Shown: positions 23,754 through 41,338, counted from the first letter of the stretch. The stretch: 64,000 nucleotides of DNA from Thalassospiraceae bacterium LMO-JJ14 (GCA_021555105.2 CP134604.1:2952501-3016500), one strand, 5' to 3'. The notes: generated by a model not told the origin, from the letters alone. Numbers and translations are program-made.

Positions 23754-24470
23754 CTAGGTATCCATCTCGCGCGACAGGATCGCTGAAAACTCACCGGCAA
23801 AGCTTTCCAGCCGCCCGGCATAACGGTCCAGGTCCCTACTCAGCTTGTTGTAGGCGACAACCGCCGGAATTGCAGCCAGCAGGCCAAGCGCGGTCGCGAA
23901 CAGGGCTTCGGCGATACCCGGCGCAACCACCGCCAGCGATGTGTTCGATGAAATGGCGATGGACTGGAAGCTGTGCATGATCCCCCAGACAGTCCCGAAC
24001 AGGCCGACGAAAGGCGCCGTCGCCCCGGTCGTCGCCAGAAATGTCATGTATTTTTCGGCGCGGTCCATTTCCCGGTGCACGGTGATCTGCATGACACGGT
24101 CGATGCGTTCGCTCAGGCCCAACTTGATATTTGCCGACGCGCTGTTGGACACCCGGCGCCATTCACGCATGGCCGCAGAGAACACAGCGGCCATCGGATC
24201 GCGCGGGTTCGCCGCAACACGATCGAACAGATCGTCCAGCGACTTGCCCGACCAGAAAGCCTGCTCGAACTCGCTTGAGCGCTTGTTGAGCCGACGCACG
24301 GTCAGAAGCTTCTCGAAAATGATCGCCCAGCACCAGATCGAAGCCAGCACCAGTATCACCATAACCGACTTCACAACGATATCGGCACGCAGGAACATCG
24401 ATATGATCGTGAACTGATCCGCACCGACCGATCCGGCCATCATCGCGGCGTCTACTGCTTGATTTTCCAT
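23754..24470 (-). CDS. tolQ: Tol-Pal protein TolQ (ExbB/MotA family)
   Basis: 238 residues with three membrane helices (about 20-50, 140-165, 180-205). The channel motif GATAPFVGLFGTVWGIMHSF is intact. With TolR it converts proton motive force into TolA movement. GGAGACAGGA precedes the start. It follows ybgC by 52 bases, the classical order ybgC-tolQRAB-pal-cpoB. Confidence 0.95.
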   Translation of the reverse strand: MENQAVDAAMMAGSVGADQFTIISMFLRADIVVKSVMVILVLASIWCWAIIFEKLLTVRRLNKRSSEFEQAFWSGKSLDDLFDRVAANPRDPMAAVFSAAMREWRRVSNSASANIKLGLSERIDRVMQITVHREMDRAEKYMTFLATTGATAPFVGLFGTVWGIMHSFQSIAISSNTSLAVVAPGIAEALFATALGLLAAIPAVVAYNKLSRDLDRYAGRLESFAGEFSAILSREMDT

Positions 24471-32833: not shown

Positions 32834-33403
32834 ATGAAGATTGACGGAAACGCCATCCGTCCCGGGATGGTTATCGAACATCAGGGACGCCTCTGGCGCG
32901 CCACGAAAATCCAGCACACCCAGCCCGGCAAAGGTGGGGCGTATCTGCAGGTTGAATTGAAAGACATCCGCGACGGCACCAAGCTGAACGAGCGCTTTCG
33001 CTCTTCGGAAAAAGTCGAACGCGCGCGTCTCGAGCAGACCGAATTCCAATACCTGTTCTCCGACGGCGATATGCACACCTTCATGCATGGCGATACCTAT
33101 GAACAAATCGCGCTCTCCTCGGAAGCGGTCGGAGAGAATGCCGTACCGTTCCTGCAGGATGGCATGAATGTGATGATCGAAACCTTCGAAGGTGAACCGC
33201 TTGGCGTCGAACTGCCGCAACACGTCACTCTTGAAGTGACCGAGGCCGATGCGGTTGTCAAAGGGCAGACGGCCTCGTCGTCCTATAAGCCCGCCATGCT
33301 CGAAAACGGTGTGAAGGTTCTTGTGCCGCCGCACATCGAGGCAGGCACCCGCATCGTCGTCGACACGCGCGACGTTTCCTACGTCGAACGTGCAAAAGAC
33401 TGA
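32834..33403 (+). CDS. efp: elongation factor P
   Basis: 189 residues, three beta-barrel domains. The KOW-like N-terminal domain carries Lys33 at the loop tip (QPGKGGAY), the position modified by EpmA/EpmB in many bacteria. The C-terminal OB domains end with GTRIVVDTRDVSYVERA. It relieves polyproline stalls; the window encodes several proline-rich proteins (TolA, OmpA-like) that would need it. suhB-like follows after 16 bases. The 125 bases upstream hold no gene. Confidence 0.96.
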   Translation: MKIDGNAIRPGMVIEHQGRLWRATKIQHTQPGKGGAYLQVELKDIRDGTKLNERFRSSEKVERARLEQTEFQYLFSDGDMHTFMHGDTYEQIALSSEAVGENAVPFLQDGMNVMIETFEGEPLGVELPQHVTLEVTEADAVVKGQTASSSYKPAMLENGVKVLVPPHIEAGTRIVVDTRDVSYVERAKD

Positions 33404-33419
33404 TCGGTATTAAAGCTTT

Positions 33420-34226
33420 ATGTCCAATCGCCTGACCCCGCTCCTGACCATCATGGTGAATGCCGCGCAAAAAGCGGGGCGTGCGTTGAGACGCGACTTC
33501 GGTGAAATCGAAAACCTGCAGGTCCTGAAAAAAGGGCCCGCGGATTTCGTCACCAAGGCCGACACCAAGGCCGAAAAGATCCTGATCGAGGAACTTCAGC
33601 AGTCGCGTCCGGCATATGGTTTCATCGTCGAAGAAGGCGGCGTCATCGAAGGCTCCGATATTTCCAACAAGTGGATCATCGACCCTCTGGACGGCACCAC
33701 GAACTTCCTGCACGGCATTCCGCATTTTGCCATTTCCGTGGCGCTGGAGCGCGACAAACGTATCGAAGCCGGCGTGATCTACAATCCGATTACCGACGAT
33801 CTGTATTATGCGGAACGCGGCAAGGGCGCTTTCCTGCGCGATTCCCGCCTGCGCGTCTCGGGCCGCGCGCATATTCAGGAATCCCTGTTTTCAACCGGCA
33901 TTCCGTTTCTGGGCCGCGATGGCCACGAACCTTTCATCGCAGAACTGCAAACCGTGATGGGTGCATCGGCGGGCATCCGCCGCTTCGGCGCAGCTTCACT
34001 CGATCTGGCGTTCGTTGCCGCCGGGCGCTACGACGGCTTTTGGGAGCGTGGCCTCTCGAGCTGGGACATGGCTGCCGGGGTTTTGCTGGTTCGCGAAGCC
34101 GGCGGTATCGTCAGTGATTTCCAGGGCCGCGACCGCATGTTGGAAACCGGCGAGATCATTGCGACGAACGCTTCCCTTGACCGCGATTTCCGGCAATTAT
34201 TGAAGAACGCGGCAAAAAACGCGTAA
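33420..34226 (+). CDS. suhB: inositol monophosphatase family protein (SuhB-like)
   Basis: 268 residues. Metal-site motifs are complete: the glutamate pair of VEEGG (about 70-74), IDPLDGTTNF with Asp88 and Asp91, and the late SSWDMAAG. In E. coli SuhB also acts in rRNA antitermination. It lies 16 bases after efp, so the two are likely co-transcribed, an arrangement common in alphaproteobacteria. Enzymatic substrate (inositol phosphate or other) not determinable. Confidence 0.92.
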   Translation: MSNRLTPLLTIMVNAAQKAGRALRRDFGEIENLQVLKKGPADFVTKADTKAEKILIEELQQSRPAYGFIVEEGGVIEGSDISNKWIIDPLDGTTNFLHGIPHFAISVALERDKRIEAGVIYNPITDDLYYAERGKGAFLRDSRLRVSGRAHIQESLFSTGIPFLGRDGHEPFIAELQTVMGASAGIRRFGAASLDLAFVAAGRYDGFWERGLSSWDMAAGVLLVREAGGIVSDFQGRDRMLETGEIIATNASLDRDFRQLLKNAAKNA

Positions 34227-34318: not shown

Positions 34319-35326
34319 ATGGATCGCCAACAGGATATTCAACGACCCCGCATTTCCGCCACCGGCTTTTTCGGCAGCGCCGCACTTGCGGTTGTGGTCA
34401 TGGCCACTATCCCGGCGAGCGCACAGACATCCTCCTATCAGCCGGCAACGGATAACGTTTACATCAACTGGGGCGCCTTGAACGGCGCTGATATATCCCA
34501 GGCACCGGCTCGGCAATCCTACGGCTATGCGCCGGCGCCGATGGCAACCGGCGGACTTTTGATGCCGGGGCCGGTCATGCCGCGCTCGACGCTGCATGTC
34601 ACACCGCCGAAAGGCAGCACCGGCGTGACCCTGCGCAAGCCTGGCACGGGACCGAAGATGGCCGCAAAGCCTGCTGCACCGGCAGCCGCCGCACCTGCGC
34701 CTGCACCGAAGATCGCCGCAGCACCGCCGCCGGCACCAGCCCAGGCTGCCCCGCCGCCGGCACCAGCTCAGGCAGCGCCGAAGCAGCTCGCGCAAAAGAA
34801 AGCCGCTCCTGCGCCCACACCCGCGCCGCCCCCTGCTCCTGCACCGGCCAAGACGGTGACGGCTTCCGCGCCGCCTCCGCCACCGCCCCCCGTGTCGACC
34901 GGCGCACCGCCACCGCCGCCGATGCCGAGCGAAGCAGCGGCCATAGCACCGCCAGCCCCCCCAGCTGCATCGAAACCTGCCGAACAGGCTTCCACCAGCA
35001 CGGCAACCCCTGCGGATGGCCCTGTAAAAGTCGTCTTCAACAACGACGACACAAAACTATCGGCCGATGGTCAAAGCGCGCTTGAAAGCGTCCTTGAGAA
35101 ATTGTCCGCCGAGGAAAAAAGCCGCGTTCAATTGATGGCTTATGCCGCCGGTGACGATCTGACATCCAGCAAAGCCCGCCGGATTTCCCTGTCGCGTGCA
35201 CTTTCCGTGCGCTCATACCTGATCGAAAAAGGCGTCCGCTCGACGCGTATCGATGTCAGGGCACTGGGGGATAAAAGCGAAGGCGAGCCAAAGAACCGCG
35301 TCGACGTCAATGTGATTGAGCGTTAA
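34319..35326 (+). CDS. secreted OmpA-like protein with long Ala/Pro-rich linker
   Basis: 335 residues from ATG 34319, which has GGAGG at 6 bases; an earlier in-frame start lacks one. The hydrophobic signal segment (about 15-38) ends in ASAQ. Residues about 110-240 are a low-complexity Ala/Pro linker with runs of up to eight prolines. The last ~95 residues follow the OmpA-like pattern (DDTKLSADGQSALESVLEKL, ISLSRALSVRSYLIEKGV, NRVDVNV), but the usual GHTD glycan-binding segment reads AYAAGDD, so diaminopimelate binding may be altered. It precedes a MotA/MotB-like pair and may be its periplasmic partner. Confidence 0.75.
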   Translation: MDRQQDIQRPRISATGFFGSAALAVVVMATIPASAQTSSYQPATDNVYINWGALNGADISQAPARQSYGYAPAPMATGGLLMPGPVMPRSTLHVTPPKGSTGVTLRKPGTGPKMAAKPAAPAAAAPAPAPKIAAAPPPAPAQAAPPPAPAQAAPKQLAQKKAAPAPTPAPPPAPAPAKTVTASAPPPPPPPVSTGAPPPPPMPSEAAAIAPPAPPAASKPAEQASTSTATPADGPVKVVFNNDDTKLSADGQSALESVLEKLSAEEKSRVQLMAYAAGDDLTSSKARRISLSRALSVRSYLIEKGVRSTRIDVRALGDKSEGEPKNRVDVNVIER

Positions 35327-35344
35327 GACCGGATGTCCGGTCTT
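35325..35344 (+). other. stem-loop after the OmpA-like gene
   Basis: AAGACCGG (35325-35332) and CCGGTCTT (35337-35344) form an 8-bp stem overlapping the stop codon. No T-run follows, so it is unlikely to stop transcription fully. It may set relative levels of the OmpA-like gene and the MotA-like gene 54 bases downstream. Confidence 0.5.
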
Positions 35345-35397
35345 GCGTTCGCCCTGATCCGCTTGACGGGTCCGGTTCGGCCCGAGGATGGACACGC

Positions 35398-36558
35398 ATG
35401 ACACGCCCTACCGTTTTCCTGTTCCGTATGATCGCGTTTCTCGGGTGCGTCGCCGCCGCCTGTTTTTTCGTCTTCGATCCGCTGAAGGACGCCTTTCTGG
35501 CAAACGCCGCACTGAACGGCCTGATTCTCGGTGTCCTCGTGCTCGGTATCTTTTACAATTTCCGCCAAGTGGCGCTGCTTTATCCTGAAGTGTCATGGCT
35601 CGACAGCTTCCGCGACACGATAGCCGAAACCGACGCCGGTCTTCAGATCAGGCTGCCCGAAAGCCGCGACAATCCGAAATTGCTGGCGCCGATGGCAACC
35701 ATGCTGTCGGACCGCCGCGGCAGCCGTTTCAGCCTGTCGGCGCTCAGCATGCGTTCGATCCTGGACGGCATTGCGGCGCGTCTGGATGAAAGCCGCGATC
35801 TGTCGCGCTATAATATCGGCCTGCTGATCTTTCTGGGCCTGCTCGGGACGTTCTGGGGCCTGCTCGAGACCGTCGGCTCCATTGGCGAGGTGATCGGCGG
35901 CCTCAATGTCGATGGCGGCGAAACGGCGCTGGTCTTCGAAAAGCTGAAAACCGGCCTTGAAGCCCCGATCGACGGCATGGGTACGGCCTTTTCATCCTCC
36001 CTGTTCGGGCTTGCCGGTTCGCTGGTCCTGGGCTTCCTGGATCTGCAGGCAAGCCAGTCCCAGAACCGCTTTTTCAACGAACTGGAAGAATGGCTGTCGA
36101 GCGTTACCCGCTTGTCCAGCGGCGCACTCGGCGCTGAAGGTGAACAGGGCGTACCGGCCTATGTGCAGGCGTTGCTTGAACAGACCGCCGAGAGCCTTGA
36201 AAACCTGCAGGTCATTATTTCCAGAAGCGAAGAAGGCAAGCACGCCGTCAATCATTCGCTGAGTGAGTTGGCCAACAAGGTCGAAACCCTGACGGATCAT
36301 ATGCGCACGGAACAGGCCGTGATGCGTCACCTGGCCGAAACTCAGGTCGAGATGAAACCGATCCTGGAACGGCTGGCAAACGGCAGTGTCGGTAATAATG
36401 CCGATGAGGTCATGTCAGGGCATCTGCGCAATGTCGACAAGAATATGCAGCGCCTGGTCGACGAAAGCGCACTGACCCGCAACGAAATCACCGACGCCCT
36501 GCGCCGGGAAATCCGGTTGCTTGCCAGGACCATCGCCGCAACCGGCGACAGCAATTGA
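35398..36558 (+). CDS. MotA/TolQ/ExbB-family channel protein with coiled-coil tail
   Basis: 386 residues. Four membrane helices at about 8-26, 38-54, 139-160 and 192-216. The third carries LLIFLGLLGTFWGLLETVG, closely matching the TolQ/ExbB/MotA channel motif. The fourth region (GLEAPIDGMGTAFSSSLFGLAGS) resembles MotA/ZorA-type proteins. Residues 220-386 form a long charged helical tail in the cytoplasm. The MotB-like gene starts 11 bases downstream. Predicted pentameric ion-channel part of a stator-like motor. No flagellar genes, and no ZorC/D/E genes, are nearby. Function unknown. Confidence 0.8.
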   Translation: MTRPTVFLFRMIAFLGCVAAACFFVFDPLKDAFLANAALNGLILGVLVLGIFYNFRQVALLYPEVSWLDSFRDTIAETDAGLQIRLPESRDNPKLLAPMATMLSDRRGSRFSLSALSMRSILDGIAARLDESRDLSRYNIGLLIFLGLLGTFWGLLETVGSIGEVIGGLNVDGGETALVFEKLKTGLEAPIDGMGTAFSSSLFGLAGSLVLGFLDLQASQSQNRFFNELEEWLSSVTRLSSGALGAEGEQGVPAYVQALLEQTAESLENLQVIISRSEEGKHAVNHSLSELANKVETLTDHMRTEQAVMRHLAETQVEMKPILERLANGSVGNNADEVMSGHLRNVDKNMQRLVDESALTRNEITDALRREIRLLARTIAATGDSN

Positions 36559-36569
36559 GACCCTAGCGC

Positions 36570-37826
36570 ATGGCCTCCCTAAGCCGCCGCGATAACCGCT
36601 CCAGTGTCATTTGGCCGGGCTTCGTCGATGCCCTGGCGACGCTGCTGATGGTCATCATATTCCTGTTGCTGATCTTCGTGCTGGCGCAGTTCTTTCTGGG
36701 GCAGGCCCTTTCCGGCCGTGACAAGGCATTGCGTGCACTGGAAAACGATCTGAGCGAATTGTCGAAAGTACTGGCGCTGACCAAATCCGAGAACCAGCAA
36801 TTGCAGCTTGGCGTCGACAGCCTGCGCGATCAGCTTTCGGCTTCGCTGGAAAGTCGCGCCACGCTGGAGCAGCAGCTTTCCGGCCTGCGTGCCGATTATG
36901 CAAGTGCACAGGCGGAACTGTCGCAGATGCGCGCCCGCTCGGCTGCCGACAAGGAAGCCATCGACCGCCAGCTTGCCGAAATAGCCGATCTCAGCGGCGA
37001 TGTCGCCGCTCTTCGTGCGCTCAAGGAGGAACTCGAAAAAGAGGTCTCCACCCTGTCCTTTCGCGCTGCAGAAGCGGAAAAGCAGCGCGACGACCTGGAG
37101 CAGTCGCTGGCGAATACGGTTGCGTCCTTGACGAAAACCGAGGCAGAACGGGACGATCTGAAAGTCGGCCTCGCCGAAAAGCAGGAAATCGCCGACAGCG
37201 CCCGCGCCCAACTGGCCCTGATGAACAAGCAGATGGCCGCATTACGTCAGCAACTGAATTCCCTGAACGCTGCGCTCGACGCCGCCGAAGCGGAAGCCGA
37301 GAAGAAAGACGTGCAGATCAAGTCACTGGGGCAGCGCCTGAATGCCGCGCTGGCCTCGAAGGTTCAGGAGCTGTCGCGTTACCGCTCCGAGTTCTTCGGC
37401 CGTCTGCGCCAGGTGATCGGCAACCGCGACGACGTCAGGATCGTCGGTGACCGCTTCGTTCTACAGTCCGAATTGCTGTTCGCCAAAGGCTCTGCCGCCC
37501 TTGGGGACCGCGGCCGTGCCGAGCTTGCCAAGCTGGCGACGACATTGCTCGAAATCGCCATCAAAATGCCCGATGACATCGACTGGATTTTGCGGATCGA
37601 CGGTCATACCGACAGCGATCCGATCGCAACGTCCACGTTTCCGTCGAATTGGGAACTATCGACGGCCCGCGCACTTTCCGTCGTCCACTTCCTGATCAGC
37701 GAAGGCATACCGGCCAAACGGCTCGCCGCCACCGGGTTTGGCGAGTACTACCCTATTGAAACCGGGAAAAGCGAACTGGCGAAGGCGAAAAACCGCCGTA
37801 TCGAACTTAAGTTCACGCAGCGCTGA
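36570..37826 (+). CDS. MotB-like protein: TM helix, long coiled coil, OmpA-type domain
   Basis: 418 residues. A single N-terminal helix (about 15-42) has Asp20 at its start in WPGFVDALATLLMVIIF, the position of the proton-binding Asp in MotB/TolR. Residues about 45-265 are an uninterrupted coiled coil. Residues about 275-418 are an OmpA/MotB domain with the intact glycan-binding core RIDGHTDSDPI (His346, Asp348) and KNRRIELKF. The coiled coil is far longer than the plug/linker of flagellar MotB. Co-transcribed with the MotA-like gene; the MFS gene follows after 3 bases. Confidence 0.82.
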   Translation: MASLSRRDNRSSVIWPGFVDALATLLMVIIFLLLIFVLAQFFLGQALSGRDKALRALENDLSELSKVLALTKSENQQLQLGVDSLRDQLSASLESRATLEQQLSGLRADYASAQAELSQMRARSAADKEAIDRQLAEIADLSGDVAALRALKEELEKEVSTLSFRAAEAEKQRDDLEQSLANTVASLTKTEAERDDLKVGLAEKQEIADSARAQLALMNKQMAALRQQLNSLNAALDAAEAEAEKKDVQIKSLGQRLNAALASKVQELSRYRSEFFGRLRQVIGNRDDVRIVGDRFVLQSELLFAKGSAALGDRGRAELAKLATTLLEIAIKMPDDIDWILRIDGHTDSDPIATSTFPSNWELSTARALSVVHFLISEGIPAKRLAATGFGEYYPIETGKSELAKAKNRRIELKFTQR

Positions 37827-39503: not shown

Positions 39504-39527
39504 CGAATACGACACATGTCGTATTCG
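39504..39527 (+). promoter_or_regulatory. 24-bp palindrome abutting the cyclase ribosome site
   Basis: CGAATACGACA (39504-39514), a two-base centre, then TGTCGTATTCG (39517-39527): 11-bp perfect arms. The GAGGAGG site begins two bases later. As DNA it could be an operator for a dimeric repressor. As RNA the 2-base centre forces a slightly shorter stem that would sit directly against the ribosome site. Either way it is well placed to control the cyclase. Confidence 0.6.
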
Positions 39528-39541
39528 TGAGGAGGTTTAGC

Positions 39542-41338
39542 GTGCCCGGGATTACTCAGTTCGAGGTCCAGGTCCAGCAGGGACAGCGGTGGAGCATTCA
39601 CGCGCAGTTCGGTTCCTTTCAAAAGGAAGCCGCTGTCGAGGAAGCCCGCGGACTCGAACGCATGCCGGGCATCAGTGCCGTCAAGGTGGTCCGCGAGGTC
39701 TATGACCCGGATCGCGGTACATCCCAGGAATTCGTGATCTACAAAAGCGCCGGGGTATCGACGCTTGATCCGCATGAAACCGATGCCACCGATACATCCA
39801 AAAGCAAATCTGGCTGGGCCAGGGCAGAGGATGAGGATGCCGACGACGAAGAACTGTCCAACACCTTTTCTTCTCTGACCGATGACGACGCGCACAAGCG
39901 CCGCAAGAAAAGCAAAGGCAAGCCCAAGGAAAGCACGCTGACGCTTGTCGTCGTTAAGCTGTTGATGGTCGCTTTGATCAGCCTGACAATCGCCGGCTTT
40001 TTCACATTCATGGCGTCCAGCTTGATCAGCGGCAAGGTGCTGTTCGGCACGACCATGAAAGGCAATGCGGAATCCAATGTTCTGTTCGTCGTCTTCGTCG
40101 GCACGTTCCTGCTGTCGGCCCTGATGATGGCATCGAGCCTGCTGAAGAAAACCCAGATCAAGGACAACAAACCTCTGTTCAAGCCCAAGGCCGCAGCCGC
40201 ACCACCGCGCAAGGTCAAGAAGGTCAAGAAAAAGCGGCGGAAAAAGGCTCCTGCGCCCGGACGCGACCTTGAAGGCGCCGACAGCAGCGGTGGCTCGGGA
40301 GACGATGCTGCTTCGAACGAGCGCCTGCGTGGTGAAATGGGCGGCGAGAAAGAAGGCGATGGCGGCGGGTCCACACCTCCCGGGGCGGACGCCAAGGGGA
40401 CCCCGGGTTTGTCGCCTAAGGAAGAAAAGCAAAAGGCATTTATGATGAAGGCGCTCGGCGCCGCTCTTGAAGGGTCCAACTTCAACAAGGAGAAGCTGGA
40501 TAACTTCAACAAGTTCGGCGTCAATCTGTGGGTTGCCGGCGCCACTGAGGCATTGATGCAAAGCCGCGGTATCGACCAGAAGGCCGCCAACAAGATCCTC
40601 GGCGACAGTGTCCAGGTGCTGGGCTACAAAAAATCCCACGCTGAAAATTTCGCCGGCAAATACGAAGAATACCTTCTCCAGGACAGCCGCTATATGCAGA
40701 TGTTCCAGGCAGGCAGAAACGCCATGAACACCTTTATGACCGACGAGACGCATATCGCGCGGCACATGGACAGCGCGCTCGAAGAATGGAACAAGCCGAA
40801 GCAGAAGGAAGAACAGCCACGCGTTATCACCGTTCTGTTCACCGACATCGCCGGCTCAACGGCGATGACACAGGCGCTGGGCGATGCCGGGGCCCAGGAG
40901 GTCGTCAGAGCGCACAACCGCGTTGTACGGGAAGCCCTGACGCAATTCCGGGGCCGCGAAGTCAAGCACACCGGCGACGGTATCATGGCGTCGTTCGAAC
41001 AGGCTTCCGACAGTGTCGAAGCGGCAATCATGATGCAGCGTGGTGCCAATGAGCATACCCAGGGCAATCCGAACCTGCCGCTATATCTGAAGATCGGCAT
41101 TAACGCCGGTGAGCCGATCCAGGAAGACAACGACCTGTTCGGATCGACCGTGCAGATGTCGGCGCGTGTTGTCGACAAGGCACAAAAGAACGAGATTTTC
41201 GTGACCGACGTGGTCAAGGGGATCTGCTCGGGCAAGTCATATCGCTTCGTCAATCGGGGCGGCTTCGAAATGAAGGGCTTTGATGGTCCGGTGACGCTTT
41301 GGGAAGTCGATTGGCGTCGAGCGCAAGCCGCGGAATAA
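39542..41338 (+). CDS. membrane-bound class III adenylate/guanylate cyclase with novel N-terminal and middle domains
   Basis: 598 residues from GTG 39542, set by GAGGAGG. Domains: a soluble ~70-residue alpha/beta domain (FEVQVQQGQRWSIHAQFGSF); an acidic stretch; two membrane helices (about 132-160 and 180-200); a very basic Lys/Arg stretch and Gly-rich linker; a helical middle domain (about 295-405); and the cyclase domain (about 427-595). Metal aspartates are present (FTDIAGST, about Asp435; HTGDGIMASF, about Asp479). The usual transition-state motif VNxAAR reads VQMSAR: Asn replaced by Gln, Arg kept. Some active cyclases share this. Makes cAMP or cGMP; ligand and output unknown. Confidence 0.85.
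   Translation: MPGITQFEVQVQQGQRWSIHAQFGSFQKEAAVEEARGLERMPGISAVKVVREVYDPDRGTSQEFVIYKSAGVSTLDPHETDATDTSKSKSGWARAEDEDADDEELSNTFSSLTDDDAHKRRKKSKGKPKESTLTLVVVKLLMVALISLTIAGFFTFMASSLISGKVLFGTTMKGNAESNVLFVVFVGTFLLSALMMASSLLKKTQIKDNKPLFKPKAAAAPPRKVKKVKKKRRKKAPAPGRDLEGADSSGGSGDDAASNERLRGEMGGEKEGDGGGSTPPGADAKGTPGLSPKEEKQKAFMMKALGAALEGSNFNKEKLDNFNKFGVNLWVAGATEALMQSRGIDQKAANKILGDSVQVLGYKKSHAENFAGKYEEYLLQDSRYMQMFQAGRNAMNTFMTDETHIARHMDSALEEWNKPKQKEEQPRVITVLFTDIAGSTAMTQALGDAGAQEVVRAHNRVVREALTQFRGREVKHTGDGIMASFEQASDSVEAAIMMQRGANEHTQGNPNLPLYLKIGINAGEPIQEDNDLFGSTVQMSARVVDKAQKNEIFVTDVVKGICSGKSYRFVNRGGFEMKGFDGPVTLWEVDWRRAQAAE

Follow-up and report, generated by a model that had tools for sequence, protein, structure and literature searches.

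Two adjacent genes, here termed A and B, lie in a 64,000-nucleotide stretch of the genome of Thalassospiraceae bacterium LMO-JJ14 (the window; all coordinates below are positions within the whole of this stretch). A encodes a channel protein of the MotA, TolQ and ZorA kind, and B encodes a MotB-like protein in which a transmembrane (TM) Asp and a C-terminal peptidoglycan-binding domain are separated by a long periplasmic coiled coil. The principal result is a property of the B family newly found here: its rod is quantised in heptads and free in length. The length statistics identify this rod as a continuous, phase-locked coil rather than a calibrated spacer. Comparison across genomes likewise identifies A-B as a class-wide, syntenic and vertically inherited core locus of the Alphaproteobacteria, rather than a local oddity or a defence island. 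The pair is probably a wall-anchored A5B2 motor driven by the proton motive force (pmf), for which B would provide a mast and the cytoplasmic tails of A the output.

Length and heptad phase of the B rod

The rod span was defined as the distance between the channel Asp and GDRF, with which the wall-binding domain starts, and was measured in 215 non-redundant B proteins. Spans range from 104 to 770 residues, with a median of 252; that of LMO-JJ14, from Asp20 to Gly293, is 273 residues, or 39 x 7. The span is divisible by 7 in 152 of the 215 proteins. Close relatives were also compared in 70 disjoint pairs whose rods differ in length: the difference is a multiple of 7 in 38 (10 expected, p 6e-15) and falls into the mod-7 classes 0, 3 and 4 in 63. 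A scan of periods from 2.5 to 15 over the rod spans places the top at 3.5 residues, with a resultant of 0.80 for all proteins and 0.64 for the 75 distinct rod lengths. Modulus 7 alone gives a weaker outcome on the distinct lengths, with a resultant (0.278) that the maximum over 20000 null draws surpasses (0.331). The reason is that at this modulus rods of 7n+3 or 7n+4 residues point opposite to rods of 7n residues; a period of 3.5 catches both. The case for quantisation thus stands on the pair test and the 3.5-residue period.

The remainder of the pair serves as a control. The wall-binding domain is near-fixed in length, YRSEFF and GDRF bound a segment of 22 residues in 207 of 209 proteins, and the length of the A tail is not heptad-quantised under the test applied to the rod. 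The rods themselves show internal identity at lags that are multiples of 7. The longest span, of 770 residues, belongs to the B protein of locus L221 (a stop-to-stop frame of 914 residues) and is largely made of 28-residue tandem repeats, with 44% identity at lag 28. These repeats suggest a route by which rods have been lengthened.

A coiled coil rises by approximately 0.15 nm per residue, which gives an estimated rod length of ~36 nm for the LMO-JJ14 protein and of >100 nm for the longest member. The periplasm is usually shallower than this, so the rod would have to tilt, bend or lie along the membrane, and a calibrated spacer is disfavoured. The initial annotation of this locus had suggested, from the great length of the coil, that force is delivered far from the membrane. 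This suggestion appears not to hold, as a span that drifts from 104 to 770 residues among relatives does not describe a tuned reach. Instead, the length-conserved element of the pair is the cytoplasmic tail of A, which is near-constant in most members (median 172 residues after TM4, quartiles 169-175, 201 sequences).

Architecture of the pair and its secreted neighbour

The A protein carries a TolQ/MotA signature, LGLLGTFWGLL together with GMGTAFSSS, which marks two core helices such as those of MotA, TolQ and ExbB. Its sequence suggests two N-terminal TM helices, followed by TM3 at about residues 137-168 and TM4 at about 193-217. In an alignment of 28 homologues, the LGLLGTF core, including T151, is invariant, and the GMGTAFSSS motif of TM4 is strongly conserved. 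Despite this signature, A falls under every curated cut-off in Pfam and NCBIfam. It scores 14.9 bits against Pfam MotA_ExbB (cut-off 22.9) and is absent from the six MotA_ExbB matches that a Pfam profile scan returned for its own genome; its best profile matches are the PADLOC ZorA models (1.5e-15). The profile comparison with ZorA, MotA and TolQ leaves A below the curated cut-offs, non-flagellar and distinct from Tol.

The AlphaFold model of A predicts tail helices at residues 254-329 and 336-382. It aligns with TolQ (8vlw_B, Z 12.1, 194 residues, 3.7 Å) and with ZorA (8vvn_D, Z 11.1), the TolQ, ExbB and ZorA structures together giving Z 10-12 over ~190 residues; matches to MotA are weaker (Z 8-10, at 9.9 and below). 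Searches of PDB sequences with A or with an A profile returned nothing beyond coiled-coil noise. Helical proteins score high by default in such comparisons, so the fold matches back the sequence signature and are insufficient alone. Motif, predicted helices and fold alignment together bear out the earlier description of A as a TolQ/MotA-motif channel protein with a helical tail.

The B protein, in turn, scores 448.9 bits against NF006543 (cut-off 305), and all 28 of the aligned homologues match the same model at E<=1e-60. This family (PRK09039, 'peptidoglycan-binding protein') has a name and no assigned function. The N-terminal TM helix of B contains WPGFVDALATLLMVIIF, which includes Asp20, and this residue is invariant in the 28-sequence alignment along with D348 and R367. 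In the AlphaFold monomer a helix runs from the TM segment into the coil (residues 18-190) and resumes at 209-283. The OmpA domain occupies residues 303-409 (Pfam E 6.7e-16), and its peptidoglycan residues are intact (GHTD, LSxxRA). The TM Asp and the intact wall domain of the initial annotation therefore stand, and its coil of ~220 residues is refined to ~240, with a low-confidence break at 191-208. An invariant TM Asp in B (D20) paired with an invariant Thr in TM3 of A (T151) is the arrangement of a stator. The stator-type architecture claimed earlier is thus found, and the complete, proton-driven status claimed with it is suggested by that architecture.

A third gene, encoding a secreted OmpA-fold protein, precedes A in 179 of the 243 loci. 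Its product likely has a signal peptide cleaved after ASA, at residue 35, followed by a long Pro/Ala-rich linker and a degenerate OmpA domain at about residues 240-320 (Pfam E 2.3e-10). Its position and fold are as initially annotated; the refinement concerns the canonical wall-binding Asp of the GHTD type, as the motif G-[HYNR]-[TASG]-D is missing in 165 of the 179 proteins, which conserve AYAGG...ARRLSLSRALAVRSYLI in its place. This suggests that the protein probably binds a protein partner and is not a wall anchor.

Distribution, relatives and locus layout

Of the 60 genomes sampled from the order, 51 carry a relative of A, as do 165 of the 241 from the class, or approximately two thirds. 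A phylum-wide sample gave matches in 95 of 299 genomes, with the strong matches almost wholly in the same class, and a set of 14 control genomes, including Caulobacter and E. coli, yielded no B above the NF006543 cut-off. The pair is normally present in single copy. Homologues that are ~50-90% identical occur in dozens of genomes, which rules out chance, and the gene order efp-suhB-(OmpA-like)-A-B is repeated across the class. A full-length B adjoins A in 231 of 243 loci, and seven of the other 12 are apparently cut by a contig end or the sequence flank. In loci L226, L233, L242, L243 and L246, A is retained with no B within several kilobases, the gene having been lost, moved or become too diverged. 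Fifty-seven genomes were scored for both the pair and flagellar MotA. Above the MotA1 cut-off, MotA is missing in 15 of 39 carriers and present in 8 of 18 non-carriers, and the two are not associated (Fisher p 0.26).

In a tree of the TM core, A joins the DUF802 (PF05650) proteins (bootstrap 92) and then ZorA (88), apart from flagellar MotA; the monophyly of the A family itself is weak in this short-core tree (60). Profile-profile comparison of six sets agrees, DUF802 being the best match to A (97% probability, E 1.4e-11) and flagellar MotA a weak one (33% probability). The DUF802 proteins resemble A in having an adjacent MotB-like gene, and their function is also unassigned. The two families are nevertheless mirror images, since DUF802 pairs combine an A tail of about 490-780 residues with a short B linker, whereas A-B has a tail of ~170 residues and a long rod. 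Pfam does not find the DUF802 domain in A. The domain is present in four relatives from other Proteobacteria (L252, L253, L254 and L255), first met as weak matches in other lineages of the phylum and then recognised by Pfam. These are channel proteins of the MotA/TolQ kind; their tails in the cytoplasm are long, and a gene for a MotB-like OmpA protein lies next to theirs, which makes them a further uncharacterised stator pair.

The ZorAB complex, like A-B, combines a channel fold and helical cytoplasmic tail with a TM-Asp B subunit that ends in a wall-binding domain. Its assembly is published as 5:2, and the ZorA tail, ion flow and wall binding by ZorB were each reported to be important for Zorya function (PMC11890865). 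A-B differs in its core inheritance, its long periplasmic rod and its shorter tail, and no ZorC, ZorD or ZorE lies next door. A PADLOC scan of ten neighbouring proteins, to which the search within the genome was confined, found no Zorya effector, as the initial annotation had noted. A true Zorya system was rejected on the synteny, on these neighbours and on the curated ZorA cut-offs (NF033917, 17.4 bits vs 500; NF033915, 14.5 vs 100).

TolQR and ExbBD provide the best fold matches to A (Z about 11-12), but A has an extra N-terminal TM helix and a C-terminal tail, and B is set apart by its coil and OmpA domain. The TolQ model (TIGR02796) matches two other loci of the genome and not A, and neither TolA nor TonB is adjacent; TolQR and ExbBD were rejected on these model scores and on the content of the locus. 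A small TolR-like B working with TolA was likewise rejected, given the OmpA domain and ~240-residue coil of B and the conserved neighbours efp and suhB. As for MotAB and PomAB of the flagellum, the four-TM A suggested here and the TM-Asp B with its OmpA domain are shared features; the monomer model of B shows no obvious plug, and the occurrence of the pair is independent of flagellar MotA. The MotA1 model (TIGR03818) matches six other sites of the genome, one of them above cut-off, and not A, which led, with the tree and distribution, to the rejection of a flagellar stator as a known system. By our own placement, A-B would be grouped among the 'generic ion transporters' of PMC12505986 and not among the flagellar ones. 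Besides Tol and A-B, the genome has five more loci of the MotA/ExbB family (L002-L006, at C1:3142414, 1743537, 617537, 2718260 and 2360334), four of which have a B-like OmpA protein nearby.

The features of the locus are listed below. The open reading frames (ORFs) of the three-gene set at 34319-37826 are as initially annotated, including the gap of 11 bases between the A stop codon (TGA, 36556-36558) and the B start codon (ATG, 36570). The Tol system is indeed separate, with TolQ at 23769-24407 on the minus strand, ~11 kb away. Promoter- and terminator-like signals at the locus are no stronger than in shuffled sequences. Further along, at 39527-41338, a 603-residue protein ends in an adenylate/guanylate cyclase domain (E 6.4e-15). 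Its gene keeps its synteny with A and B in the closest relatives, and its weak matches to PycC (Pycsar cyclase) are probably owed to the common cyclase domain alone.

Features of the A-B locus and its syntenic anchor
Feature	Position	Strand	Basis
efp and suhB (inositol monophosphatase family), syntenic anchor of the locus	32834..34226	+	Gene order recurring class-wide
OmpA-fold protein, secreted	34319..35326	+	ORF call; Pfam OmpA
A subunit, MotA/TolQ/ZorA-like channel protein, 386 aa	35398..36558	+	ORF, motifs, predicted fold
A cytoplasmic helical tail, residues 218-386, conserved end LLARTIAA	36049..36555	+	Predicted helices
B subunit, MotB-like, 418 aa, PRK09039/NF006543 member	36570..37826	+	NCBIfam score
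Asp20 codon of B, candidate ion-carrying residue in the single TM helix	36627..36629	+	Invariant in alignment
B periplasmic coiled-coil rod, about residues 44-283	36699..37418	+	AlphaFold helices; heptad-quantised length in the family
B OmpA-like peptidoglycan-binding domain, GHTD (D348) and LSTARA (R367)	37437..37823	+	Pfam; invariance

Proposed mechanism, alternatives and significance

The motor proposed here would be an A5B2 complex of the 5:2 stator kind, seated in the inner membrane and driven by the pmf. Ion passage would take place where Asp20 of B meets Thr151 in the TM3/TM4 core of A, a core rich in Thr and Ser, and would turn the A ring around the two B subunits. From the pore, their helices would emerge as a single continuous, parallel coiled coil, forming a coaxial mast whose tip the OmpA domains anchor in peptidoglycan. 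Such a mast must be continuous, and so would keep its heptad phase, with length of little consequence. In models of ZorAB and MotAB, the B subunit is the part held by the wall. With B so held, the bundled cytoplasmic tails of A would most likely be the moving output, as in the ZorAB models, and would carry torque into the cytoplasm. The whole would constitute a housekeeping envelope machine of the Alphaproteobacteria, joined in many cases by a secreted OmpA-fold accessory. The core distribution suggests envelope upkeep in growth or division as its likeliest role.

Several observations count against a motor of this design. Any uninterrupted coil would be heptad-quantised, so the rod statistics support continuity and not rotation, and the low-confidence break that AlphaFold predicts at 191-208 would interrupt the B coil itself. 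The A model is of moderate quality (pLDDT 71.5, pTM 0.48), and unrelated helical proteins score Z 9-11 against it. The tail, as the proposed output, is about 80-120 residues long in approximately one tenth of A proteins, and its conserved end motif is missing in 58 of 201. Mutant data on the pair were not found in the open-access literature. The initial annotation could assign no job to the pair, and no study of its function was found there either, whether under PRK09039, DUF802, envelope transposon sequencing or non-flagellar MotAB, or in work on MotAB evolution, periplasmic force transducers, Sinorhizobium Tol-Pal, Rhodobacter CenKR/DalA, the Brucella envelope or Rhodospirillum curvature.

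Among the alternatives, the pair could be a periplasmic force transducer, in line with the initial annotation, in which the A ring stays still and the B mast turns or pulls to do work on the wall or outer membrane, as in TolQR-TolA-Pal. The closeness of A to TolQ and ExbB in fold, the size of the rod as the largest element of the pair and the frequently adjacent gene for a secreted OmpA-fold partner would all suit such a device. It is nonetheless unlikely, as the intact wall-binding domain would tether B, several-fold variation in rod length is odd for a device reaching a set target, and the conserved locus has no conspicuous gene of the TolA, TonB or Pal kind. The kinship with ZorA could also be read as that of a domesticated Zorya-like sensor, its mast sensing wall damage or phage entry and its A tail signalling inside. 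The PADLOC ZorA1 model matches A and 28 of 28 homologues, and the tree places A with the DUF802 pairs and then ZorA, but a vertical, syntenic and class-wide distribution is not island-like, none of the ten scanned neighbours is a Zorya effector and the curated ZorA cut-offs are missed by far, which together make this reading improbable. Lowest in probability, and scarcely credible, is an alternative or ancestral flagellar stator. B has a MotB-like layout and many carriers own flagellar MotA, LMO-JJ14 too having a true MotA. Set against this are the lack of a match between A and the MotA1 model, the carriers without MotA and the MotA-bearing genomes without the pair, and the distance of A from flagellar MotA in the tree; the monomer model of B, moreover, predicts a helix that continues straight on from the TM segment, with no obvious plug.

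The PADLOC ZorA1 matches hold a warning for annotation. At E<=1e-10, 29 of the 42 matched genomes were of the same class, and the coordinates, where compared, were those of the A-B locus, so that ZorA models evidently match a housekeeping locus. Many symbionts, pathogens and marine bacteria belong to the Alphaproteobacteria; should the pair prove to be a motor, the class would harbour a widespread ion-driven machine of the envelope that has so far escaped notice. A rod that is phase-locked and free in length also bears on how the B subunits of stators carry torque. More tentatively than the motor itself, it is conceivable that A-B is an uncharacterised, class-wide and wall-anchored rotary motor whose mast, a coaxial coiled coil, is selected for rotational phase and not for length, and that with the mirror-image DUF802 pairs it forms a further housekeeping stator branch beside Tol/Ton and the flagellum. 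If this is true, Zorya may have been recruited from that branch.

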